64,000 nt of DNA from the NCBI RefSeq assembly GCF_900215725.1, contig NZ_LT962471.1, positions 62,273-126,272 on the forward strand, read 5' to 3'. This DNA comes from Ezakiella peruensis. Lineage in GTDB: Bacteria; Bacillota; Clostridia; Tissierellales; Peptoniphilaceae. Position 1 is the first letter of the stretch; each line of letters begins with the position of its first letter. Of this stretch, positions 3,506 to 34,619 are shown one piece after another. The notes beneath the pieces are model-generated. The model did no database searches. It had not been told where the DNA came from and was given only the letters and a program-made list of their open reading frames with translations. Position numbers and translations under genes: made by a program.

Positions 3506-4033
3506 TTATCGCCATTCTTGGCGAAGAATCCTCATCATAATAAAGTCACTGTACTCGTTGTTATAGTAGTATCCTTGCTCTTGAACACCTTCTTGCTTAA
3601 ATCCGATTTTTCTATAGAAATTCAATGCATTGGTATTCATCCCTACCACACCAATTGCCACTCGGTTCATTTCATAGTGATCAAAAGCAAGGTTCAGCAT
3701 AAGTCTAATAGCTTCTGTTCCATATCCTCTATGTTGCATTTTAGGGTCAGGGATGATAATCGAAAGATCAGTACAGTTCCAGGTAGGCCACATTCGTAAC
3801 AATCCCGTTTCACCTATTATATTCCCCTCTAAATCTGTAATCGTATACCATACTGAGTCTTTCTGTTTATGACCAATTTTAATCCTCTCTTTCTCAGCTT
3901 CTTCATCAGTAAGTTTTGTAAAGCCACATTGGAACATGACTAATGGCTGATTGTACCAGTAGGTAAAGAATTTCACATCTTCGATTTTTTGCTCACGCAA
4001 TATAATATTGTTTCCCTTAATTTCATTAATCAT
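3506..4033 (-). CDS. RimJ/RimL-type GNAT N-acetyltransferase
   Basis: 175 aa, full length for this family. It starts with the characteristic GNNIILREQKIEDVKFF strand-helix. The acetyl-CoA loop is HRGYGTEAIRLML (about residues 102-114), followed by NRVAIGVVGMNTNALNFYRKIGF, the classic RimJ/RimL ending. It probably acetylates an amine on a protein, amino acid, antibiotic or polyamine; the substrate is unknown. It is followed by its own terminator. Confidence 0.9.
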   Translation of the reverse strand: MINEIKGNNIILREQKIEDVKFFTYWYNQPLVMFQCGFTKLTDEEAEKERIKIGHKQKDSVWYTITDLEGNIIGETGLLRMWPTWNCTDLSIIIPDPKMQHRGYGTEAIRLMLNLAFDHYEMNRVAIGVVGMNTNALNFYRKIGFKQEGVQEQGYYYNNEYSDFIMMRILRQEWR

Positions 4034-4111
4034 ATTATTTCATATACCTCCAAATACTTCATTACACACATAGCTTCTAATTTACCTATCCCGACAGACA
4101 GGGATTTACCT

Positions 4112-4546
4112 CTACAAACGATATATCATCAGTCCATCGATAATACCACACTTTTGAAATCCATATTTTTCAGCTATCCGAATACTACTTTTTTGTTCAG
4201 GTACACATTCAATCACTACATGTTTACCTGAGTTTCTAGCTTTTGTCATCATCTCTGATGTCAAGCATGATGCAATCCCTAACCCCCAAAAGGAAGGTTC
4301 TAAAACCCATCCAATCTCGACACTCTCTGAATCATAATCATGATAAATCACATATCCGATGAAGTCGTTATCTTTTTCAACTGCATATATCAATGGTGTA
4401 TCAGAAAGACCGAATCGAAATAGGAATTGCTCGGCCTGCTCTTTTGTGTATGGTGCTTCGATATATTGCATTACTTTCGAATTCGACAAAAGTTTGTAAA
4501 GCGGTTCAAAATCACTGACTGTCATTTTTCTAATTCTTATATTCAT
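4112..4546 (-). CDS. GNAT family N-acetyltransferase
   Basis: 144 aa, a complete small GNAT domain: MNIRIRKMTVSDFEPLYKLL at the start, the acetyl-CoA loop in LEPSFWGLGIASCLTSEMM, and a final EKYGFQKCGI strand. It lies 78 bases upstream (in transcription order) of the acetyltransferase gene at 3506-4033 and may be co-transcribed with it. The substrate is unknown. Confidence 0.85.
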   Translation of the reverse strand: MNIRIRKMTVSDFEPLYKLLSNSKVMQYIEAPYTKEQAEQFLFRFGLSDTPLIYAVEKDNDFIGYVIYHDYDSESVEIGWVLEPSFWGLGIASCLTSEMMTKARNSGKHVVIECVPEQKSSIRIAEKYGFQKCGIIDGLMIYRL

Positions 4547-4586
4547 TCATACTCCACAACTTCTAATCTACCATTCTCTATTTTCC

Positions 4587-4622
4587 ACAAAAGCCTCCCA
4601 CCAAAACGATGGAAGGCTTTCT
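4587..4622 (-). terminator. Hairpin terminator, probable end of lon-engB transcription
   Basis: On the minus strand AAGCCTTCCATCG pairs with TGGTGGGAGGCTT around a short T-rich loop, followed by TTTGTGG. It is the first terminator-like structure after engB, beyond the palindromic element at 4869-5109. Confidence 0.5.
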
Positions 4623-4868
4623 AAAATTTTTTCCTACCTTATTGCCCTTCAGTCAATAAGTATCACTCGTAAAACTCGCTTAATTCAACAACTCTCTTTT
4701 GAATCTATTTTTTCTCGCTTTTTGTATCAAAACAGTATCATTTAGAGAAATTTGCTATATCAAAATCGCTAAAACCTCGTGTTTTCACGGTTTTATAGCA
4801 GTAACATATTTGCTTCCGTTCTATCAAATTTCGCTGGAAAATTATCTTCTATTTATTTTTATACATAC

Positions 4869-33136: not shown

Positions 33137-33874
33137 TTATTTCTTAAAGGCCAGAATCTTGCCTCTTTTGATATATCTTTCCATATTTTCGTGGCCCCAC
33201 TTGTTAAGATATTCTTCAGTCAAATCTTCTTCGATTACTGCATAGGGATCAAAGCCGCATTCCTTTAAAATATTTTCTAACGAATCCTTCGTTATAGACC
33301 CGCCGACTCAGGTGGCGTGCATATGGGGATCGTCAAGTATTTCCTGGGGCAGAGGATTTATTTGAACAATATCAGAGATTGAAAGCCTTCCGCCTGGTTT
33401 TAAAATCCTATAAATCTCTTGATAGACCTTCTTTTTATCTGGCAATAAATTTATAACGCAATTTGATATTACGCAGTCGCAAAAATTGTCAGGCAAATTA
33501 ATATCGTCAACTTCGGACACAATAAAGTCCGTATTGTCAAAGCCGCGTTTTTCCTTTATATAAGAGGCCTTTTCAACCATCTCTGGCAATTTGTCAATGC
33601 CGATTGCCTTACCCTTGGTCACAATCTTGGACGCCTTAAAAACATCCATGCCCTTGCCCGAGCCCAGGTCAACCAAAATATCCGTCTCTTTTAAATTTGC
33701 ATTCTCAATAGGATTGCCGCAACCAAGTCCTAGGTTGGCCCCCAACTCTAAATCTTCTTCTGTATAACCAAGAGACAGGGCCAGCCTCCGCTCCATCTCG
33801 CCGTCCTTGCTAATACCATCCTGGTTTGCAATATTCCTATAAAAATCAGCAGTTGTCTTTTTAAAATCTTTCAT
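33137..33874 (-). CDS. arsM: ArsM-like methyltransferase, predicted selenoprotein (UGA = Sec189)
   Basis: 245 residues when UGA at 33308-33310 is read as selenocysteine; without it the protein stops after 188. Features of arsenite methyltransferase: GANLGLGCGNP, SAM-binding VDLGSGKGMDVF, ISNCVINL (C139), LKPGGRLSISDIV. The family motif DPELYAGCVxGA aligns with DPHMHATUVGGS here, so the UGA occupies the conserved cysteine. C139 and U189 are 50 residues apart, as are the two As(III)-binding cysteines (174 and 224) of the algal enzyme CmArsM. After the UGA the frame stays open for 56 sensible residues (SITKDSLENILKECGFDPYA, EEYLNKWGHENMERYI) to TAA. A SECIS-like hairpin follows. The start overlaps the yaaA stop codon by one base. 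The N-terminal cysteine cluster usual in ArsM is lacking, so the substrate may differ. Confidence 0.87.
33278..33294 (-). promoter_or_regulatory. Bacterial SECIS-like hairpin
   Basis: In the mRNA, UAACGAA-GGA-UUCGUUA forms a seven-base-pair stem with a GGA loop. The loop GG lies 21-22 bases after the UGA, within the range known for SelB-binding SECIS elements (in E. coli fdhF the loop GG is at about 19-20). Confidence 0.82.
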
Positions 33875-34581
33875 TATAAATCTCTCCTAAATACATATAA
33901 TTTATCATTTGAATTTTCTTTATCATATACAAAACCATCATCATTAAAATCTTTCAAGTAATCTAGATTTGTAATTTTATTTTTCACTATAAAATTCGCC
34001 ATCTTACCCCTAAGTTTTTTGGAAATAGTCGAGTGGCGTCTTATCTTTCCATCCCTAAGCTCATAAAAATCAAAGTCTATAAAGTCAAAATCATCTCTCT
34101 TAAGCAAAGATGAAAATTCATCAGAGGCCAAATTTAAAATCCTCTCACCTTTTTCAAAATAATTATTATAATAGTCCGCCCAAAGTTTCTTCAGGCTCAT
34201 CCCCTTGACCTTGATCCCGGTATTAAAGTCCAGGCGATAGGGTTTGATCAAGTCGTCGGTCCTCAGCGGTCCATAAAAAGCAGAGAGTATAATTACATGG
34301 TCTCTGGCAAAATCATCAGTCGCATCAAAGTCAATTTCCCTAAAGGCCATGCCCTTGTACATATCGATGGCATAATAGGCGTCACTCTTGTCAAAGTCCT
34401 GGTAATATCCGTAAACCTCGTCAGCGAGCTTGTCGGACACCTTAAGCTTCTTTTGCAAGTCATTCTTTGACATCTTTTGAATTTCTTCCAAAATCTCCTG
34501 GGAAATCTCATTTAATTTTATCTTTTTATCTATACTCTTTTCAAAAGCCATCTCCTTGGACGGCGATAAAATAATCTTCAT
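33874..34581 (-). CDS. yaaA: YaaA family peroxide-stress protein
   Basis: About 235 aa from the ATG at 34581; a GTG two codons upstream overlaps the AGAGGTGG ribosome site. It starts MKIILSPSKEM, the family signature, with YKGMAFREIDF and the conserved AFYGPLRTDDLIKPYRLDF in the middle. The E. coli protein lowers free iron and DNA damage during peroxide stress and binds DNA. It is followed by the selenoprotein gene with a TAATG overlap, suggesting a joint oxidative or metalloid stress unit. Confidence 0.93.
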   Translation of the reverse strand: MKIILSPSKEMAFEKSIDKKIKLNEISQEILEEIQKMSKNDLQKKLKVSDKLADEVYGYYQDFDKSDAYYAIDMYKGMAFREIDFDATDDFARDHVIILSAFYGPLRTDDLIKPYRLDFNTGIKVKGMSLKKLWADYYNNYFEKGERILNLASDEFSSLLKRDDFDFIDFDFYELRDGKIRRHSTISKKLRGKMANFIVKNKITNLDYLKDFNDDGFVYDKENSNDKLYVFRRDL

Positions 34582-34619
34582 ATCCACCTCTATTATCTAT
34601 ATACCACAAAATCCACAAA

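Follow-up and report, generated by a model that had tools for sequence, protein, structure and literature searches.

In the algal arsenite methyltransferase CmArsM the residues Cys72, Cys174 and Cys224 bind As(III); the first methylation requires the complete set, the second just Cys174 and Cys224 (PMC3877260). For mouse AS3MT, Cys157 and Cys207, which correspond to Cys156 and Cys206 of the human enzyme, were proposed by Fomenko et al. to be redox-active, catalytic and disulfide-forming (PMC4211708). A survey of such enzymes used as its criterion the presence of at least three of the four CmArsM cysteines 44, 72, 174 and 224 (PMC5552862). Forms that contain selenocysteine (Sec) have also been catalogued. 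An arsenite methyltransferase with the motif UxxG (NCBIfam model NF008823, WP_011987699.1) is entered in the table of a prokaryotic selenoproteome catalogue with reference to Fomenko et al. 2007, in a row that precedes those headed 'Predicted with high confidence' (PMC13188914), and a Sec-containing arsenite methyltransferase appears in the list of PMC9312934 as well. The corresponding table row for ocean data reads 8, 4 and 245 (PMC2398784), another table row gives 39 and 41, which we took as organisms and genes (PMC5029168), and methyltransferase selenoproteins are mentioned for algae (PMC2375036). Three further NCBIfam models, ArsM_AhpD_UU (NF041537), ArsM_DUF2284_UU (NF041536) and MTase_UXPK_star (NF047649), describe selenoproteins in which, judging by the model names and the entries of PMC13188914, a second domain is joined to a methyltransferase domain and two or three Sec are present.

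Here we analysed a stretch of 64,000 nucleotides from Ezakiella peruensis (contig NZ_LT962471.1, positions 62,273 to 126,272), referred to as the window. The initial annotation had described a methyltransferase gene that is intact except for an in-frame TGA, and we recovered this TGA as codon 189 of a minus-strand frame (Table 1). The frame is opened by the ATG at 33874, comprises 188 codons before the TGA and 56 after it, and closes with a TAA ending at 33137. The 56 codons carry family sequence, as had been claimed, and the region is conserved in relatives. The SAM-methyltransferase domain detected with Pfam (residues 66-205) spans the TGA. The top NCBIfam match was the arsenite methyltransferase model NF008823 over residues 26-232, with a score under the curated cut-off of 263 bits. 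Two features that mark membership in ArsM (NF008823/PRK11873) were found, namely the SAM-methyltransferase domain and the three As(III) ligand positions, the third of them as predicted Sec. A mechanical ORF caller ended the gene at residue 188, just as the initial annotation had expected of normal annotation. Three other TGA-interrupted frames with at least 80 codons before and 40 after the TGA were found in the window, at 2880, 27690 and 30468, and the latter two overlap longer ORFs. The interrupted frame is very probably an intact arsM-like selenoprotein gene, as judged from the comparisons below.

Table 1. Coordinates of the features in the window.
Feature	Position	Strand	Remarks
arsM-like gene	33137..33874	-	245 codons if TGA is Sec, ATG to TAA; NCBIfam NF008823 216.9 bits, E 3.5e-64
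In-frame TGA	33308..33310	-	predicted Sec codon 189, column of CmArsM Cys224
Candidate SECIS hairpin UAACGAA-GGA-UUCGUUA	33278..33294	-	loop 20 nt after UGA; weak alone, enrichment in relatives
Cys139 codon	33458..33460	-	column of CmArsM Cys174; invariant in 15 rows
Cys52 codon	33719..33721	-	column of CmArsM Cys72; invariant in 15 rows
yaaA-like gene (peroxide stress protein)	33874..34587	-	immediately upstream of arsM

When U was searched as Cys, phmmer aligned C52, C139 and U189 with Cys72, Cys174 and Cys224 of chain 4kw7, which we take to be CmArsM. The chain 4fs8, named CmArsM in PMC3877260, was matched over the same range. The 50 residues between C139 and position 189 equal the spacing from 174 to 224 in CmArsM, an agreement to which the initial annotation had drawn attention. 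In an alignment of 15 rows, in which Sec was shown as Cys, both cysteines and the Cys/Sec column were invariant, and in the orthologues L006 and L011 the three ligand positions are the sole Cys/Sec residues of the protein. The initial annotation had arsenic bound by one thiol and one selenol; the predicted selenol, U189, is retained here, while the thiols would be two, C52 and C139. As position 189 corresponds to human Cys206, the predicted Sec falls on a position that was already singled out in 2007, according to the account in PMC4211708.

The three aligned ligand positions are thus shared with CmArsM and human AS3MT, from which the window protein differs by Sec in place of Cys224 and by being 130 to 140 residues shorter. 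It contains no Cys before the first ligand and therefore has no counterpart of the fourth conserved cysteine of CmArsM, Cys44. Counted by the survey criterion of PMC5552862, it has two Cys, with Sec as the third residue and none before residue 52. Like the catalogued NF008823 selenoprotein it is of the ArsM type with Sec in UxxG, here UVGG; it differs in scoring under the cut-off of the model and in lacking an N-terminal CC pair, WP_011987699.1 itself being represented here by its catalogue entry. The three exception models for ArsM-type and methyltransferase selenoproteins were the next NCBIfam matches. Their methyltransferase domain is related to that of the window protein (E 2e-32 to 6e-37), but the latter lies far under their cut-offs, with 127.2 of 510 bits for ArsM_AhpD_UU, 123.6 of 575 for ArsM_DUF2284_UU and 112.4 of 460 for MTase_UXPK_star, and it has a single domain and one Sec. 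As a selenoprotein ArsM is already present in the published catalogues cited above, the window protein is not novel as a kind, in line with the earlier caution that the kind might have been catalogued.

To follow the TGA among relatives, 61 genomes including that of the window were searched, 37 of them from the same family. Family matches at E <= 1e-50 were obtained in 14 of the 37 genomes, each with one TGA and at the same codon in 14 of 14, and identity to the window protein went down to 39-40%. No family match without TGA was detected at this threshold in the 61 genomes searched. The next relatives read, L015-L017, carry Cys in the TGA column. Over a total of 127 loci (a few repeats of one gene included) this column was either TGA (38 loci) or Cys (89 loci) in every case, which agrees with the claim that the TGA sits on the conserved family cysteine and with the Cys/Sec alternation that the initial annotation had proposed to look for. 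The loci consisted of 17 from the relatives, 30 of the 39 listed matches of a class sample, and 80 of the 556 found in named genomes; three of the 127 had no search motif and were read individually. The hairpin and later tests were run on distinct sequences, 30 with Sec and 86 with Cys; L100, L101 and L109 were left out. The 56 codons 3' of the TGA were under purifying selection, with a dN of 0.000 and a dS of 0.50 between L001 and L002, one of nine pairs tried, most of which were saturated at silent sites.

These observations bear on the possibility that the gene is decaying and that its TGA is a mere nonsense mutation which ends the protein at residue 188. The stop of the ORF caller at the TGA and the weakness of the window hairpin on its own (see below) would fit such decay. 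They are set against a TGA whose codon position is shared by 14 genomes of the family at identities as low as those given, a site that is either TGA or Cys in every locus, a conserved sequence after the TGA, and the association of TGA-containing ArsM with SelB described below. We consider decay very improbable. A close relative with plain decay at the site, the case named beforehand as speaking against Sec, was not found among the 127 loci.

Some further copies were noted during these searches. In a Lachnospiraceae record an ArsM-like frame with TGA at the same column (L109, near 4001-4657) was missed by the motif search, and it stands outside the hairpin, tree and CC tests. A second ArsM fragment in another genome (G003:C33:281889-282130) shows 65% identity over residues 5-81 and several stops, and is likely the remnant of a duplicate ArsM. 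G005 contains a second, longer Cys-type ArsM copy (L067, G005:C1 about 990171-990638), the N-terminal part of which lies outside the same open frame. For the genome of the window itself, no second ArsM match was obtained in the search of the 61 genomes.

The machinery for Sec insertion was complete in the genome of the window. The genes selD, selA and selB are contiguous on contig C1 (721045-725330), and a tRNA-Sec (selC) with the anticodon UCA lies at C1:824780-824872, so that all four genes which the initial annotation had proposed to look for are present and the absence of selB or selC, which would have spoken against it, was not found. The selD gene carries an internal TGA itself. Within the 37 genomes of the family, SelB scored over its cut-off in 14/14 genomes with TGA-ArsM and in 5/23 of the others (p 2e-6, relatedness ignored). 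In 27 further genomes of the class with an ArsM match the corresponding numbers were 9/9 with TGA and 6/18 with a match that has no TGA (p 0.001, relatedness likewise ignored). The association refers to family and class genomes, the TGA loci of named records being outside it.

Alternatively, the TGA might be read as Trp or by a near-cognate tRNA, with no involvement of selenium, and the modest strength of the window hairpin would be compatible with that. In the window, TGA ends 8/42 of the stop-free stretches of at least 200 codons and thus also serves as a stop; together with the complete Sec machinery and the fact that Cys alone alternates with TGA, this argues against selenium-free read-through, to which we give hardly any credence. 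Reassignment of TGA was rejected, as were near-cognate read-through and gene decay.

We then considered the hairpin that the initial annotation had placed downstream of the UGA. Its sequence and position are as described, with GG at bases 21-22 after the UGA. A published rule for bacterial SECIS elements asks, in the form given in PMC13188914, for a G among the first two loop bases, a loop 16-37 nt after the UGA and an energy of <= -7.5 kcal/mol. The window hairpin fits this rule in loop, G and spacing, and the energy of the hairpin taken alone is above the limit. A 22-nt piece had -4.5 kcal/mol, and 6/200 dinucleotide shuffles folded as well; the stem had -3.7 kcal/mol, with p about 0.075 against synonymous recodings. 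Within 41 nt the minimum-energy fold was a GU-rich alternative of -8.6 kcal/mol, as good as which were 13/200 shuffles. Because of the weak energy, the p of about 0.075 and the more stable GU-rich alternative, the hairpin is plausible but not proven: its sequence and place stand, its strength taken alone does not, and another fold competes with it.

The initial annotation had proposed to look for a conserved hairpin in homologues. In a scan with the loop, stem, G-position and spacing limits of PMC13188914, restricted to perfect stems and with no energy limit, a candidate hairpin was present in 28/30 distinct Sec genes, compared to 40/86 Cys genes. The two Sec genes L003 and L010 had no candidate under the perfect-stem rule. 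Hairpin energies were lower in Sec than in Cys genes with p 3e-8, a value which is optimistic because the rows are related. The mean was -4.6 kcal/mol in Sec genes vs -1.0 in their synonymous recodings, and -1.8 vs -1.4 in Cys genes; tested against a gene's own recodings, the hairpin had p < 0.05 in 15/30 Sec and 7/86 Cys genes. The limit of -7.5 was reached by 3/30 Sec and 5/86 Cys genes and hardly tells the two groups apart. The machinery, the Cys/Sec alternation and the hairpins thus support Sec at the conserved cysteine.

The stop codon TAA of yaaA overlaps the ATG of arsM by one base at 33874 (TAATG), from which the two genes are probably co-transcribed. Of the 15 loci compared, those of G000 and G005 alone have yaaA next to ArsM, and no ArsM neighbour was common to most of the 15. 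Thirty selected neighbours, from genomes other than G003 and G005 and with ORFs of at least 90 codons called, were scanned with Pfam and turned out to be mainly unrelated housekeeping genes and transporters, the exceptions being ArsR-type genes in G035 and G010 and arsenic genes in G060. Large neighbours had been guessed from their lengths to be metal pumps; this was dropped, since Pfam assigned them to Lon protease, DNA ligase, UvrD helicase and DUF3160. An ACR3 gene over the cut-off is present in the genome of the window, on another contig than the arsM-like gene, and none over the cut-off was found in the near-identical genome G005. On contig C4 (L066, 2899-7570) a run of genes was read by eye from the translations as arsR, arsD, arsA, acr3 and arsC, of which ACR3 alone was tested by profile. 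For ArsP (PF03773) the genome of the window gave only a weak match below the cut-off. Two other genomes each had an ArsP_1 permease gene with a single in-frame TGA (G042:C2:224828-225700 and G058:C2:202647-203519), and these genes may encode Sec-containing organoarsenical permeases.

The surroundings leave room for the view that the protein is a Sec methyltransferase whose main substrate is another soft element or thiol, such as antimony, methylarsenicals only, or selenium or tellurium species. The window gene stands outside any ars operon and has yaaA as its partner, and the protein is under the NF008823 cut-off. Across the family ACR3 is not linked to TGA-ArsM (6/14 vs 5/23, p 0.16, not significant), and the selected neighbours scanned in 10 of the 12 remaining TGA genomes (ORFs of at least 90 codons) included no ArsR-type gene. 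The location of the ACR3 run on another contig and the failure to find ACR3 over the cut-off in G005 also speak against arsenic. Arsenic, on the other hand, is favoured by the three ligand positions, which are kept and in two orthologues are the only Cys/Sec residues, by the ArsR-type genes of G035 and G010, which precede the TGA-ArsM by 11 and 22 bases, and by the presence of the ACR3-containing run in the genome of the window. Four of the eight scored subclade members pass the ArsM cut-off (L008, L009, L077 and L079, with the window protein, L003, L014 and L107 below it), and the best match without TGA in the 61 genomes searched, the Cys form of G060, sits behind genes with ArsA, SBF (ACR3 over cut-off) and LMWPc domains. 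We regard a main substrate other than arsenite as unlikely, though clearly less so than the two readings without Sec.

A tree was calculated from 114 distinct rows, with duplicates and rows of <190 or >420 residues excluded. The Sec rows formed two groups. One comprises 26 Bacillota rows and is free of Cys rows (98/96); the other, from Desulfobacteraceae and a deltaproteobacterium, has 4 rows. Two origins of Sec were considered on the ground of these two groups in the free tree and were not adopted, as the AU test does not reject a single group (p 0.4). The window protein falls within a subgroup of 17 rows (99/99) of the Bacillota Sec group.

Extra cysteines in ArsM take part in a disulfide cascade. 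Within the stretch of 58 residues that precedes the first ligand an N-terminal CC pair was found in 78/86 Cys forms and 13/13 other Sec forms, and in 0/17 members of the window subgroup (L001-L014, L077, L079 and L107). Two of the 17 have one Cys in this region, upstream of the probable start. The shared residue set left in the subclade is two thiols and one predicted selenol. Eight of the 86 Cys forms have no CC, seven of these having no Cys at all in the pre-ligand region; six of the seven make up one clade, mostly of Acidobacteriota and Planctomycetota, and the seventh, L168, is outside the tree. Sec alone was rejected as the cause of the missing pair, because the other Sec forms keep CC and some Cys forms are without it. 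The 17 members are one lineage and not 17 events. We propose that the window subgroup may do without the extra cysteines thanks to its Cys-Sec pair. Tentatively, the subclade may represent a minimal selenium-dependent ArsM, in which Sec was fixed at the third ligand and the N-terminal CC then became dispensable and was lost, because the Cys-Sec pair would do the redox recycling for which extra cysteines are used elsewhere; we hold this to be possible but rather doubtful. No description of such a loss was met in the literature consulted on Sec-containing ArsM, in searches that were not aimed exactly there.

Taken as a whole, we assign a probability of about 0.88 to the explanation that the locus encodes a Sec-decoded enzyme of the ArsM type. 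The protein would be a standalone selenoprotein, related to arsenite S-adenosylmethyltransferase of the PRK11873 type (ArsM). UGA189 would be decoded as Sec by way of SelA, SelB, SelC and SelD with the help of the short hairpin that follows in frame after about 20 nt. Two thiols (Cys52 and Cys139) and one selenol (Sec189) would bind As(III) for methylation from S-adenosylmethionine, and Cys139 and Sec189 may keep the arsenic bound during the second methylation. The same two residues could oxidise to a selenenylsulfide that is re-reduced in turnover.

On this explanation the gene, truncated in appearance, is intact and encodes a selenoprotein; it occurs in 14/37 of the family genomes examined. 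Surveys that require three of four cysteines, as the criterion of PMC5552862 does, would probably omit such proteins. Sec and Cys forms of one predicted arsenic-binding site occur in nature, two of them with the three ligands as their only Cys/Sec residues, and would offer a clean system to study the benefit of selenium in arsenic chemistry and the need of extra cysteines in turnover. The window protein would add a stripped-down example of a Sec-containing ArsM-like protein, from an anaerobic bacterium.
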